Shown one piece after another: positions 11,638-15,204 of a DNA stretch of 15,204 nt. The notes beneath the pieces are model-generated. The model saw only the letters and a list, made by a program, of their open reading frames with translations. It searched no databases and was not told the DNA's origin. The stretch is from contig WYEI01000272.1 in NCBI GenBank assembly GCA_009903905.1, positions 1-15,204 on the forward strand, given 5' to 3'. Origin of the DNA: Pyrobaculum sp. (GTDB taxonomy: Archaea; Thermoproteota; Thermoprotei; Thermoproteales; Thermoproteaceae). Numbering within the stretch: the first letter of the stretch is position 1; each line of letters starts with the position of its first letter. The position numbers were made by a program, and so were the translations under genes.

Positions 11638-12479
11638 TACCCCGCGACGACATCGTCGCAGGCATCGCCAACACGCCCCTGGTGGCCCTCCTCTCGGAGC
11701 TGGAAGAGGTGAAGCCAAGCCCCAGGCTGAGACCCCTCCTCGACTTCCTCACGGACATAGGCCTCCTACAGAGAAAAGGCGACAAGTACAAAAAGGCCCA
11801 GCACCCCCCCAGGCCGTACGACGTTTCACCCCTCGCCGAGGTCGTCTCGGATCTTTTCCAACAGGTGGTGTTCCCGTACCTCGTCTCGGGGAGACGCGTC
11901 GCCAGGCTCGCCACGGAGCTTCAGAGGGCGCTCTACACATACACGACGGCGTTTCAAAACATGCGCGTCGTGGTGGCGCAGGAGCTGATGCGCTACGGCG
12001 GGTTGACGCTGGTCGCGGGGTGGTTCCCCTGCGGCTTCTCCTCGGAGCTCATGTCCATCGCGGGGAGAGACGTGGTCATCGTGGAGGAGCGGGAGGAGCT
12101 GGTGGCTCTGGAGATGGACAGGCTCTCCCTCATACCACTCGCCCCGGCGCCGCTGGGGCAGGAGCTAGCCGCCGCCAGCTTCCACGCCTTCGAAAACCTG
12201 CCGCTGAATGAGATAAAGGTAGCGGCGGAGAAATACGGAAAGTTCAACCTAGCCGTGGCCTGCCAGAGAGGCGCCGACTTAAACGCCCTGAGAGAGGTGG
12301 CCGAGGAGGTGTTCTACATAAAGCCGAGGGACTCCGTTGTGTCCTTCCTAAACGCAACCCTCCTAGACGCCCTAGGCCTAACCCGCCCCCTAGACGAGGA
12401 GAAGGCACTTAAGAAGGCAGAGAAGGAGGAGGTGGGGCCCTTCGACGTCTACATCCTACGGGGAGCAGGCCCAGCCTGA
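11634..12479 (+). CDS. Unrecognised 281-residue protein, possible methyltransferase-like fold
   Basis: The gene is clearly real: it starts in an ATGA overlap with the GTPase and keeps GC-rich codon use throughout. Residues 28-55 (SPRLRPLLDFLTDIGLLQRK) look like a winged helix. Residues 121-165, LTLVAGWFPCGFSSELMSIA then RDVVIVEEREELVALEMDRL, resemble the first Rossmann strand, glycine loop and second strand of a SAM-dependent methyltransferase, although the GxGxG loop is degenerate. The order winged helix then Rossmann recalls small-molecule O-methyltransferases. A substrate cannot be inferred. The last 24 nt overlap the convergent phosphatase gene. Confidence 0.6.
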   Translation: MIPRDDIVAGIANTPLVALLSELEEVKPSPRLRPLLDFLTDIGLLQRKGDKYKKAQHPPRPYDVSPLAEVVSDLFQQVVFPYLVSGRRVARLATELQRALYTYTTAFQNMRVVVAQELMRYGGLTLVAGWFPCGFSSELMSIAGRDVVIVEEREELVALEMDRLSLIPLAPAPLGQELAAASFHAFENLPLNEIKVAAEKYGKFNLAVACQRGADLNALREVAEEVFYIKPRDSVVSFLNATLLDALGLTRPLDEEKALKKAEKEEVGPFDVYILRGAGPA

Positions 12480-13142
12480 GAGGATTAAGTCCACCGCCTC
12501 TCTGAACCCCACCCCGCTCGGCCCCTCCACCACCACGCGGGCCGCCTTCTTAGCCGCCCCAGTGGCGTTCCCCACCGCAATCCCCCAGGCGGTTTTCAAC
12601 ATGCCCACATCCACGTCGCTGTCTCCCACCGCGGCCACCTGGAAGCAGGGAACGCCGAGCCTCTCGCAGAGCCACCTGACGGCCGTCCCCTTGTCCACCC
12701 CCGCCGGCCTCACATGTATCGCGTAGCCGCTAGACTCCACCACGTAGTTGCCGCCGACTGCCGCCGCAATTCTCCCCACGGCGTCCTCCGCCAGGGGGAT
12801 ATACGCCAGATCGTACTTCCGGCATTTATTCTGGGGGCTCGGCGCCGCGGCGCCCGTGGCCAGCACCGCCTTGTCCACAGCCGCCATATCGCCGCTACAC
12901 AGCTCGTGGGTCTCGCCGTCGAGGTATATAAGGCAACCGTTTTCAGCAACCACGTCCCTTATGCCCAGGTACCTGGCTATGGTCAGGGCGAAGTCCAGCC
13001 CGTTCGCCGTGGCGAGGACAACGCGCAGACCCGCGTCGCGCGCCCTCCTAAGCGCCAGAAGCGCCTCCGCAGACAGCTCATACGTGTTGCGGCTCAGAGT
13101 CAAAGTCCCGTCTAGATCCACCACCAAAACCCTACAGTTCAC
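12456..13142 (-). CDS. Archaeal phosphoglycolate phosphatase, HAD family
   Basis: A 228-residue HAD hydrolase with a C2 cap. Motif I is DLDGTLT (D9, D11), motif II is ATAN (T45), the lysine of motif III is in GVDKGTAVRWL (K151), and motif IV is GDSDVDVGML (173-182), followed by GIAVGNAT. This pattern and length match the archaeal phosphoglycolate phosphatase group related to sucrose-phosphate phosphatase and Cof-type enzymes; phosphoglycolate as substrate is from family knowledge. The GTG start at 13142 has a TATA box 24 nt upstream, overlapping the end of the upstream gene. Confidence 0.85.
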   Translation of the reverse strand: MNCRVLVVDLDGTLTLSRNTYELSAEALLALRRARDAGLRVVLATANGLDFALTIARYLGIRDVVAENGCLIYLDGETHELCSGDMAAVDKAVLATGAAAPSPQNKCRKYDLAYIPLAEDAVGRIAAAVGGNYVVESSGYAIHVRPAGVDKGTAVRWLCERLGVPCFQVAAVGDSDVDVGMLKTAWGIAVGNATGAAKKAARVVVEGPSGVGFREAVDLILSGWACSP

Positions 13143-13161: not shown

Positions 13162-13170
13162 GTTTAAATC
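13162..13170 (-). promoter_or_regulatory. TATA box of the phosphatase gene
   Basis: The minus strand reads GATTTAAAC, centred 24 nt from the GTG at 13142. Confidence 0.6.
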
Positions 13171-13682
13171 CTAACAGGCAGGAAATGCTCCACCAGCGGC
13201 AAGGCATCCTCCACAGACTCGCCACACCTCACCGGAGCATACCTACTCCGCACAAGGCATCTGGCCAGCTCGGGGTCGCCCAGCACCCTCAAGGCCTCGG
13301 GGCCCGCCGCGCGGTCCGCCGGCCTCCACCTCCCCTCCTCCCTCTGCACCTCCACAAAGCCGTAGGCCACCTCGGCGACGCCCGCGGGATACGCCACGAC
13401 ATACAGCGGAGACAAGTCGCACCTCTCAGCCCAGCAGTTTAGCATCGCCAGATGCGGCTCACCATTGAAAACACCGTAGACTTCAGAAAGCGGGACGAGC
13501 TGGACCTCATACGTCGAGTCCCTGGCCTTAATTATGAGCTTTGGAGGCATCAAGGTATCCCGGGCCAAAGTCACGTGGGTCACCACCGCCCTCCCGCCGC
13601 GCCGCCCAACGAGCACCGGCATCTTAGCCCTAGGCACAGGAACAGGCGGCCACAACGTAGCCACATACCCAGGGCCGAGCAC
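13164..13682 (-). CDS. Unknown 172-residue protein; predicted natural start at 13721 is interrupted by TAG
   Basis: No family recognised. It is probably soluble, with a Pro-rich N-terminus (LWPPVPVPRAKMPVLVGRRG) and three Cys residues between about 83 and 153. The open frame starts at GTG 13682. The only TATA box is centred 23-24 nt before an ATG at 13721, which is in the same frame and would be the expected leaderless start, but its third codon is TAG (13715-13713). The codons between the TAG and the GTG read SRIVTRDGWA and look protein-like. So the gene may be freshly inactivated, or translated from the GTG with a 39-nt leader unlike the other genes here. It lies upstream of the phosphatase with a 21-nt gap. 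Confidence 0.6.
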   Translation of the reverse strand: MLGPGYVATLWPPVPVPRAKMPVLVGRRGGRAVVTHVTLARDTLMPPKLIIKARDSTYEVQLVPLSEVYGVFNGEPHLAMLNCWAERCDLSPLYVVAYPAGVAEVAYGFVEVQREEGRWRPADRAAGPEALRVLGDPELARCLVRSRYAPVRCGESVEDALPLVEHFLPVRI

Positions 13683-13776: not shown

Positions 13777-13860
13777 CGCCGCCGCCGGGATTTTTAGGCG
13801 GCCTCTAGCCTGAACCCGGGACCTACGGGTTAACAGCATCGGCGCAGCGATCTGCGGGGG
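13777..13860 (-). tRNA. 3' half of split tRNA-Asn(GUU), with trans-splicing leader and T-loop intron
   Basis: Leader 13860-13838 starts CCCCCGCAGATC and is complementary to the trailer of the 5' half at 14832-14893. The exon starts at G31 (13837). It continues with anticodon loop CTGTTAA (13836-13830, anticodon GTT for Asn), 3' anticodon stem CCCGT, variable AGGTC, T stem CCGGG, T loop TTC, an 18-nt intron (13811-13794), AAAT, CCCGG, acceptor CGGCGGC (13784-13778) and discriminator G (13777), which is the usual one for archaeal Asn. The 5 nt upstream of the loop in the genome cannot form an anticodon stem; only residues from the 5' half can. CCA is not encoded. The last four leader bases before the bulge (GCCG, 13843-13840) pair exactly with CGGC of the 5' exon. 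Confidence 0.88.
13794..13811 (-). other. 18-nt intron in the T loop of tRNA-Asn
   Basis: The T stem halves CCGGG and CCCGG are separated by TTC, 18 extra bases and AAAT. Removing the 18 bases gives the regular loop TTCAAAT. The intron can form a short GGC/GCC hairpin, and GGGT/GCCT can make the four-pair central helix of a bulge-helix-bulge (two G-C, two G-U). The exact edges may shift by a base because of the A run. Confidence 0.78.
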
Positions 13861-13879
13861 TGTGTCTTTGTTTTTATGT

Positions 13880-13889
13880 GTTTTTAAGT
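13880..13889 (-). promoter_or_regulatory. TATA box of the tRNA-Asn 3' half
   Basis: The minus strand reads ACTTAAAAAC, centred 24-25 nt before 13860, the first base of the pairing leader. It implies independent transcription of this half. Confidence 0.6.
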
Positions 13890-13957
13890 TTTTTCGTTGA
13901 GTGTTTTGGCTGTATTGGGGTCTTGCGCGAGTCTTTCGAGCAGATGATGTGTTATTA

Positions 13958-14434
13958 TTAGGCGTCTTCCTCCCTTACTTTTATGTGGTTTTTCCACCGC
14001 TCAAATTCGTAGCTCAGTATTTCTCTTAGCCTGTTTTCCAACGCCATCTTTATCTCTACACTCAGCTGTGGGTCGCCGTATTTTTCGGCTTTGAGCCTGA
14101 TCCCGCCTATGTTGACCGCCTTGGTGCCGGAGTGGAAGCGGTGTAGCGCCTCTTCTGCCGCCTTTTTCTTCTCTTCGTCTCCGGTCTGCGTCACGTGTTC
14201 GAGGTACCGTTTCACAGCTTCTTTCTCCTTTGGCGTAAGCTTTTCTAGCTCGTCTTTCGGCACCGCCACCTCGAAGCTGGAGGCGCCTTTGCTTATTACT
14301 GAGGCGTTTATGCCGGAGAGCCTAAGCCGGCGTCTAAACTTCTCAGCCTCCTCCAACACAGAAAACCGCGCCACGGCATTTACAGTGGGCATCTTCCTGC
14401 CCTCTTTCATCACATACGTCAGCCTCAGCTTCAT
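13958..14434 (-). CDS. PaREP2-like repeat-family protein
   Basis: A 158-residue protein rich in charged residues. It starts MKLRLTYVMKEGRKMPTVNA, then has a small alpha-beta unit (AEKFRRRLRLSGINASVISK, then FEVAVPKDELEKLTPKEKEA), then KAVNIGGIRLKAEKYGDPQL and a helical end with YEFERWKNHIKVREEDA. I associate this pattern with the PaREP2 families of Pyrobaculum, multi-copy proteins of unknown function that are often broken; this rests on memory. An ATG at 14434 is taken; a TTG one codon upstream is possible. No TATA box is seen 25 nt above. It lies between the two tRNA-Asn halves, on the same strand, and is lower in GC than the genes to the left. Confidence 0.6.
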   Translation of the reverse strand: MKLRLTYVMKEGRKMPTVNAVARFSVLEEAEKFRRRLRLSGINASVISKGASSFEVAVPKDELEKLTPKEKEAVKRYLEHVTQTGDEEKKKAAEEALHRFHSGTKAVNIGGIRLKAEKYGDPQLSVEIKMALENRLREILSYEFERWKNHIKVREEDA

Positions 14435-14475
14435 CAACGCAGGATTTTTGCGCCCAAAACGGCGTAGCGAGGGGG

Positions 14476-14598
14476 GTGCGGCTGGAGCTGGCCTTCAGCA
14501 GATTTGAAGTATATGAGGGTAAGGTAAGAGAGGTGCACCGCCCCAAGGGCCTGCTGGCCTACGCCGCGGCGGCGAGAGAATACGTGAGGATGCTCTAG
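14476..14598 (+). CDS. Possible 40-residue small protein or remnant
   Basis: From GTG 14476 the frame reads VRLELAFSRFEVYEGKVREV then HRPKGLLAYAAAAREYVRML and stops at 14598. The amino-acid pattern looks coding, and the frame stays open some way upstream (including DFCAQNGVARG), so it may be the tail of a larger, decayed protein. The TATA evidence is weak. No family recognised. Confidence 0.28.
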   Translation: MRLELAFSRFEVYEGKVREVHRPKGLLAYAAAAREYVRML

Positions 14599-14831
14599 CT
14601 CCTCTGAGGCCGCTGGCGCTGTTTTCGCGTCTCGTGCGGAGCCCAACTCTAGTGTAAAATTCTTTCTCTGTCGGCTTAAACTGTTTTTCCTTTCGGCGTG
14701 TTACATATTTCGTGTTTTGCCAAAGCTGGATGACCGGCGCGAGTGCAGAGGAAGGGTAGACAGATTGACTAAATTGACTATGAACGCCGTGGACTATGTA
14801 AGAATATAGAGAAGATGACGTGCATGATGAT
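14599..14831. other. Gene-poor stretch before the tRNA 5' half
   Basis: Lower in GC than the flanks. No reading frame here has a start codon, a promoter and protein-like composition together. A short tandem repeat of AATTGACTA-like units occurs at 14763-14780. I see no other structured element. Confidence 0.4.
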
Positions 14832-14837
14832 AAAAAA
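14832..14837 (-). terminator. Oligo-T terminator of the tRNA-Asn 5' half
   Basis: Six T on the minus strand directly follow the GC-rich trailer (GGGGGGCCGC) of the 5' half. Short T runs end archaeal transcripts, so the 5' half RNA should stop here, about 970 nt before the 3' half. Confidence 0.6.
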
Positions 14838-14893
14838 GCGGCCCCCCGCAGATCCGCTCCTCCGCCGCTCTAACCGGGCTGAGCTACGGCGGC
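14838..14893 (-). tRNA. 5' half of split tRNA-Asn(GUU), with trans-splicing trailer
   Basis: Exon 14893-14862 reads acceptor GCCGCCG, TA, D stem GCTC, D loop AGCCCGGTTA, D stem GAGC, G26 and GCGG (residues 27-30). The acceptor pairs at all seven positions with CGGCGGC of the 3' half at 13784-13778. Residues 27-30 plus G31 of the 3' half pair with CCCGU (one G-U, four Watson-Crick). The exon ends in CGGC plus bulge GG; the trailer begins A, then GGAGCG and GATCTGCGGGGG, which pairs with the 3' half leader over 16 bp with one mismatch and one bulged G. No T arm or anticodon follows locally, so this is not a whole tRNA. G1 lies 24-25 nt from a TATA box. Confidence 0.88.
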
Positions 14894-14911: not shown

Positions 14912-14923
14912 GACTTTATAAAG
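14912..14923 (-). promoter_or_regulatory. TATA box of the tRNA-Asn 5' half
   Basis: The minus strand reads CTTTATAAAGTC, centred 24-25 nt before G1 of the tRNA at 14893. Transcription would start at the mature 5' end, in line with the leaderless tRNAs and minimal RNase P described for Pyrobaculum. Confidence 0.7.
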
Positions 14924-15061: not shown

Positions 15062-15204
15062 TTAGTTTTCTTCTTCCGGGGCTAGTAGTATCTTTGCGTA
15101 TTCTGCGAGGGAGTTTCTTAGGTTTGCGTCTTCGGTTTGGAGGGCTGTGGCGAGTAGCACCTGTGCTAGCACTATTTTCCGGTCTTCTTGTGGTAGCGCG
15201 TTTA
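15062..15204 (-). CDS. C-terminal part of an unknown gene, cut by the window edge
   Basis: The minus strand holds an open frame running in from beyond 15204 and ending in TAA at 15064-15062. The 46 visible residues, NALPQEDRKIVLAQVLLATA then LQTEDANLRNSLAEYAKILL and APEEEN, form amphipathic helices with an acidic end, clearly protein-like. No family recognised from this piece. Confidence 0.55.
   Translation of the reverse strand, partial: NALPQEDRKIVLAQVLLATALQTEDANLRNSLAEYAKILLAPEEEN

Follow-up and report, generated by a model that had tools for sequence, protein, structure and literature searches.

The stretch of DNA analysed here (hereafter the window) comprises 15,204 nt from Pyrobaculum sp., contig WYEI01000272.1, and carries a tRNA-Asn(GUU) gene in two halves, both on the minus strand and separated by a 1024-nt spacer that is homologous to the spacers of several other split tRNA genes. 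The 5' half (14862..14893; 32 nt) supplies nucleotides 1-30 and is identical in Pyrobaculum sp. WP30. The 3' half (13837-13777; 61 nt) consists of a first part running from nucleotide 31 to the T loop and including the GUU anticodon (13812..13837), an 18-nt insert in the T loop (13794..13811) and a last part that ends at G73 (13777..13793), both exonic parts being assigned from the sequence and with ARAGORN. The insert, delimited with the same program and similar to those in the WP30 tRNAs Asn, Arg-CCG and Lys-CUU, is likely to be a second intron of the bulge-helix-bulge (BHB) type, with ambiguous exact ends; its removal leaves a tRNA of 75 nt. ARAGORN called no tRNA in the unmodified window and none in the 5' half by itself; for the halves joined at 30/31 it called tRNA-Asn(gtt), with or without the insert. 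An earlier note on this DNA had placed both halves at the positions given here, which the sequence bears out, and had proposed that together they make a complete tRNA that neither could form alone. The call on the joined halves agrees with the former claim, although the 18-nt insert had been overlooked in the tally, and the latter stands for the 5' half.

Adjoining the 5' half is a trailer (14838..14861, minus strand), the left arm of a 30/31 intron, which is complementary to a leader in front of the 3' half (13838..13860, minus strand), the right arm of the same intron. Both assignments draw on the pairing analyses, and that of the leader also on covariation. The trailer is followed by a T6 run (14832..14837, minus strand), likely a transcription terminator, and the leader is preceded by a TATA-like box, CTTAAAAAC (13880..13888, minus strand), located 51 nt before the 3' exon and likely the promoter of the 3' half; these two features were recognised by their recurrence across trailers and leaders, respectively. 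Another box, TTTATAAAG (14914..14922, minus strand), lies ~25 nt upstream of the 5' half and is presumably an archaeal TATA-like box too, judging from its sequence. Between the T-run and the box of the 3' half are found the left arm of an element (14599..14831, minus strand), homologous to the spacers of the other WP30 split tRNAs and of tRNA-Thr in Thermoproteus sp. CP80; a 150-bp repeat (14449..14598, plus strand), which is the 3'-end remnant of the element's opposite-strand gene; and a 159-aa open reading frame (ORF; 13958..14437, minus strand), the C-terminal remnant of a 1043-aa LAGLIDADG-like protein of which WP30 holds an intact version. The repeat (query ~363-512) is also present at many other WP30 sites, mostly without a match to tRNA halves, and the CP80 ORFs of the opposite-strand gene had no match in Pfam. 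The earlier note, right about the split tRNA, was silent on the complementarity of trailer and leader, the T6 after the trailer and the TATA-like box before the 3' exon, and missed the likely cause of the split, a mobile-intron family that divides several tRNAs.

The same split tRNA-Asn is carried by WP30 (CP012158.1), the nearest genome compared (59% of sampled words in common), where it measures 3847 nt end to end versus 1117 in the window. Exons, trailer and leader are identical in the two, save for one base of the T-loop insert, and the whole aligned locus is 86-89% identical. WP30 possesses five split tRNAs (Asn, Trp-CCA, Arg-CCG, Thr-GGU and Lys-CUU), all of them interrupted at 30/31 by homologous spacers. 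On their joined halves, ARAGORN returned three of the five isotypes as they stand and all five without the T-loop inserts, Trp and Thr being called directly and Arg and Lys once their inserts had been removed. Among 19 family genomes, the exact matches listed for an exon-trailer pattern fell only in WP30 (6 places) and CP80 (1), and all 7 stretches retrieved from a named genome collection, in which the window's source genome or one very close to it may be missing, came from these same two. In CP80 the halves of the split tRNA-Thr(GGU) lie on two contigs, each a few kb from a contig end.

Some of these tRNAs have peculiarities of their own. In the split tRNA-Thr(GGU) of WP30 and CP80 (L064, L066, L068), U33 of the anticodon loop is, by eye, replaced by C. 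The split tRNA-Arg(CCG) of WP30 (L063) shows a C-C mismatch at 1-72 and may be decaying. A third tRNA 3' segment of CP80 (L067 ~2650-2840), perhaps Tyr, follows a copy of the element and has a long interruption behind the anticodon; a search for its 5' half found none, and this tRNA may be split outside 30/31.

The trailer-leader duplex of the window has a predicted energy of -34.7 kcal/mol, against a mean of -18.1 for shuffled sequences (sd 3.3; lowest of 500, -31.1), and cofolding of the window halves yields the acceptor stem, the junction helix and the tail duplex simultaneously. By eye, a BHB can be drawn at the junction, with CGGC (25-28) pairing with GCCG of the leader and flanks GG|A and AU|G. 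We compared six loci in a pairing matrix (window Asn; WP30 Trp, Arg, Thr and Lys; and a tRNA-Asn of another genome of the genus, G007): the cognate duplex was the best in 6/6, by row and by column, and in five of the six its energy was below that of all 500 leader shuffles, at least one shuffle being lower for Arg. With 10 BHB pairs compared over six distinct junctions, 88% of the cells were standard pairs, and 2/10 pairs had changed on both sides (G-C to A-U and C-G to U-A), with no such change when the partner was slid; the shuffle control gave 5/500 for the cells and again for the covariation score.

Other results of the same analyses weigh against this pairing. Ranked purely by energy, the trailer has better partners in the window than the leader: of 4336 stretches of 28 nt that were scored, at least four (near 13293, 13300, 10115 and 14875; the trailer's own complement excluded) reached -34.8 to -39.3, with -33.5 for the leader. 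For the count of both-side-changed pairs, the shuffle control is weak (51/500); one inner BHB pair is non-standard in 5/6 junctions and one central pair in 2/6. Pairing energy alone proves little, because other GC-rich stretches of the window match the leader in strength; the case for more than chance comes from recurrence, namely the same layout in four other WP30 tRNAs, the cognate pairing and the co-varying junction pairs. It is position and the cognate pattern, not energy, that carry the pairing argument at the sequence level. A chance origin of the halves was rejected on their recurrence in other tRNAs and the cognate pairing. Membership in a known RNA family was rejected as well, the two matches obtained being below gathering score and neither to a tRNA family.

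The 1043-aa ORF is intact in the spacer of the WP30 tRNA-Asn. The predicted fold of its product matches LAGLIDADG homing endonucleases, and two LAGLIDADG-like motifs, GWLASDE and LVAYYLGDG (register placed by eye), are found in the sequence; the acidic residues D490 and D600 are invariant in one alignment (A1), as are the same columns in a second (A2). Its dN/dS relative to two CP80 copies is ~0.30, a sign of constraint on the ORF. Searches of Pfam and NCBIfam gave no match above cut-off for this ORF, the best being LAGLIDADG_3 (E 0.08); a SPOR label from Pfam (E 0.003-0.0075, below cut-off) was not used. The protein is predicted to be homing-endonuclease-like. The full ORF has been lost from the window copy and from 4/5 of the WP30 copies, all of which have kept the exons, the pairing arms, the T-run and the box. 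ORFs related to the LAGLIDADG-like domain (residues ~460-770), many of ~400-550 aa, are scattered across the genomes of the order. An origin from a virus or provirus was rejected, with 0 exact matches in viral contigs and 20 pattern matches of which none was a relative; a viral fold library returned mixed weak rows, a few of them LAGLIDADG.

We consider it likely that the window holds a single tRNA-Asn(GUU) gene in two halves, which are probably transcribed separately and trans-spliced at 30/31, and that the spacer is a decayed form of an element, intact relatives of which encode the predicted LAGLIDADG homing-endonuclease-like protein. The split at 30/31 proposed in the earlier note is upheld as the best reading by ARAGORN, the relatives and the pairing.

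A comparison of the locus in sister species, which the same note had suggested, revealed a contiguous tRNA-Asn at the orthologous position in three genomes. The window tRNA is flanked downstream by a phosphatase gene (12456-13142) and a 172-aa ORF (13164-13682), and upstream by a gene match at ~15083-15202. All three neighbours flank the contiguous tRNA-Asn of genome G005, in the same order; beside that of G010, matches were obtained for the phosphatase and the 172-aa ORF, and beside that of G004, for the phosphatase and the upstream gene. At 30/31, G005 and G010 possess a short cis intron that opens with AGGA, like the trailer, and G004 is without an intron. In a further genome, G008, the tRNA-Asn is inverted relative to the flanking genes when compared with G004 (L017 vs L018).

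WP30 itself has short introns at 30/31 in five tRNAs (Lys-UUU, Arg-CCU, Arg-GCG, Cys-GCA and Arg-UCU; anticodons by eye), which have GAGCGGCGG before the site in common; Arg-UCG has the same letters before the site and no intron. The Arg-UCU intron (~45 nt; L071 ~418-559) forms a long stem like those of the split tRNAs and resembles an element site that is empty or has collapsed.

The relatives of the ORF point to further occupied sites. The C-terminal end EK[T/A], found in 91 of 129 relatives, is consistent with a stop codon within the CTTAAAAA box, an arrangement seen in the DNA of CP80 tRNA-Thr. Seven relatives read past the box; all seven are metagenome proteins and enter a tRNA 3' half, that of Asn in two cases and of Arg-GCG in five, as judged against the translated WP30 and window DNA. 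The remaining 31 are truncated or end differently. The tail of P0001 runs into the downstream flank of the window and therefore represents the same locus with a near-full ORF. Those of P0028, P0054 and P0111 continue into a flank like that of Arg-GCG in WP30, where this tRNA has a short intron only; Arg-GCG appears to be filled in certain populations only, its filled state being known from protein tails rather than from DNA. Both at the Asn locus and at Arg-GCG, to judge from these sequences, one and the same host site occurs with and without the element.

A separate split tRNA-Asn was found in G007, with one half at ~13.3 kb of a 35-kb contig (C20; L118) and the other at ~5.8 kb of an 18-kb contig (C74; L160). 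Its tails are unlike those of the window and complementary to each other (-51.7 kcal/mol); other genes adjoin each half, and no element was seen beside them. Should the assembly be right (it consists of 130 contigs, and misassembly is possible), the location of the halves on different contigs favours trans-splicing there. The tRNA-Asn has probably been split at 30/31 at least twice, or else a split made by the element was later scattered. The absence of a visible element beside the G007 halves fits the view that the tRNA was split first, or by ordinary rearrangement, and that the homing-type gene is a passenger in an already split or intron-bearing locus, as do reports in reviews that archaeal tRNA introns move between tRNAs. 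Nevertheless, we regard such an order of events as unlikely: spacer homology, T-run and box recur together in five WP30 tRNAs at the same nucleotide, Arg-GCG is filled in metagenomes but has only a short intron in WP30 next to a similar downstream flank, and the dN/dS of the ORF likewise speaks against a mere passenger.

TATA-like boxes and T-runs of this kind serve as promoters and terminators in archaea. Here, a run of T5-T6 starts 21-24 nt past the 5' exon in 7/8 trailers, the exception being that of G007, and CTTAAA stands at -50/-51 of the 3' exon in 7/9 leaders, the others having it at -55 and at -61 (in the latter, the exon start is uncertain). If transcription began ~25 nt past the box, the leader would be ~25 nt long, as has been predicted for the A. 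pernix tRNA-Asp (PMC3218864). The T-run, the promoter-like box and the intervening ORF lead us to predict splicing in trans rather than in cis. One could instead picture a single long precursor, from which the 1024-nt spacer would be removed in cis, as an oversized ordinary intron, at the same BHB: the halves are on the same strand and in the right order, sister genomes have a short cis intron at 30/31, and a read-through form of the A. pernix tRNA-Asp, of very low abundance, is described in PMC3218864. Such a precursor is nonetheless quite improbable, given the T-runs that follow nearly all trailers, the box before the leader, the 1043-aa ORF lying between the WP30 halves and the G007 halves on different contigs.

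In the complete WP30 genome, searched with at most 1 mismatch, the Asn anticodon arm occurs once as a tRNA, in the split copy; a 1-mismatch match at 357940 was judged by its flanks not to be a tRNA. The Lys-CUU arm also occurs once, the anticodon parts of Trp, Thr-GGU and Arg-CCG were met only at the split loci, and no intact copy of any of the five split tRNAs was found by these pattern searches. A search of WP30 for the Rfam tRNA family listed 28 matches, which do not amount to a complete inventory. The split gene is thus the sole tRNA-Asn source that the pattern searches found in the WP30 genome. That the window copy is a dead, disrupted gene, with an intact tRNA-Asn elsewhere serving the cell, is very hard to believe: no other tRNA-Asn was found in WP30, the genome searched for intact copies, and exons, trailer and leader have stayed unchanged, save the one insert base, within a locus only 86-89% identical.

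For the split tRNA-Asn assembled in trans, the following course of events can be proposed. It would start from a contiguous tRNA-Asn, as in the sister genomes, two of which have the short 30/31 intron. A 30/31 intron spreading among tRNAs would have acquired, or been built around, a homing-type gene, and the element whose homologous spacer now occupies the site may have entered the intron, the arms of which became trailer and leader. Given the T-run that closely follows the trailer and the TATA-like box close in front of the leader, each half would be its own transcript; the arms would pair and form the BHB, the splicing endonuclease would cut and a ligase would join the exons. The homing-type protein would spread the intron among tRNA genes that have GAGCGRCGG before position 31. 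The full ORF would eventually decay, as it has in the window and in 4/5 WP30 copies, with exons, arms, T-run and box persisting; because all of these are needed, the tRNA would remain split after the gene is gone. We are inclined, though only slightly, towards the more general proposal that a selfish homing-endonuclease intron enters tRNAs at 30/31 via a widely shared sequence, brings its own terminator and promoter and makes obligate half-transcripts, with the host dependent on trans-splicing for its Asn, Trp, Arg, Thr and Lys tRNAs.

The origin of split tRNAs is debated: PMC3218864 sets relics of ancient half-genes against a late breakage for which the mobile agent is unnamed. A model in which mobile elements disrupt tRNAs has already been proposed (PMC3293823). 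According to PMC3218864, no split tRNAs were present in the five Pyrobaculum genomes then sequenced, and Asn is absent from its Table 1. In the open-access literature we found neither a split tRNA reported for WP30 nor a homing gene in an archaeal tRNA intron. What the window and its relatives offer is a candidate splitting agent that can be read in the sequence: in several tRNAs, one element family is represented by sites that are filled, empty or decayed. If this is true, the 'late, mobile' origin of split tRNAs becomes directly testable, a homing-type gene is placed in archaeal tRNA introns, and the fragmentation of an essential gene by a selfish intron can be tolerated, since the splicing motif still works in two pieces.

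Several known systems share features with the one described here. The split tRNA-Lys(CUU) of Staphylothermus and Nanoarchaeum equitans (PMC3218864) is likewise divided at 30/31, with a BHB and pairing tails, and WP30 also has a split Lys-CUU at 30/31. For Desulfurococcales, the same source describes a single split tRNA in each genome and names no splitting agent, whereas WP30 has five, with a homologous spacer that bears a homing-type gene. The split tRNA-Asp of A. pernix resembles the window tRNA in its adjacent same-strand halves, its promoter in the former intron and a predicted start 20-25 nt before the 3' exon; it differs in its 121-nt spacer, its junction at 37/38 and the lack of any element in the description. 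The translocatable tRNA introns of Thermoproteales (Fujishima 2010, cited in PMC10714607, PMC3293823 and PMC4390854) are, like ours, similar introns at one position of different tRNAs but, unlike the present element, have no gene inside according to the citing passages. A further parallel comes from archaeal rRNA introns (PMC4496867), which occur in the same order, combine a BHB motif with an intron-borne LAGLIDADG gene and exist side by side in coding, remnant and short hairpin forms, as does the present element. Those introns reside in rRNA hosts and are excised from a precursor; the element described here resides in several tRNAs, where the intron appears to separate two transcription units.
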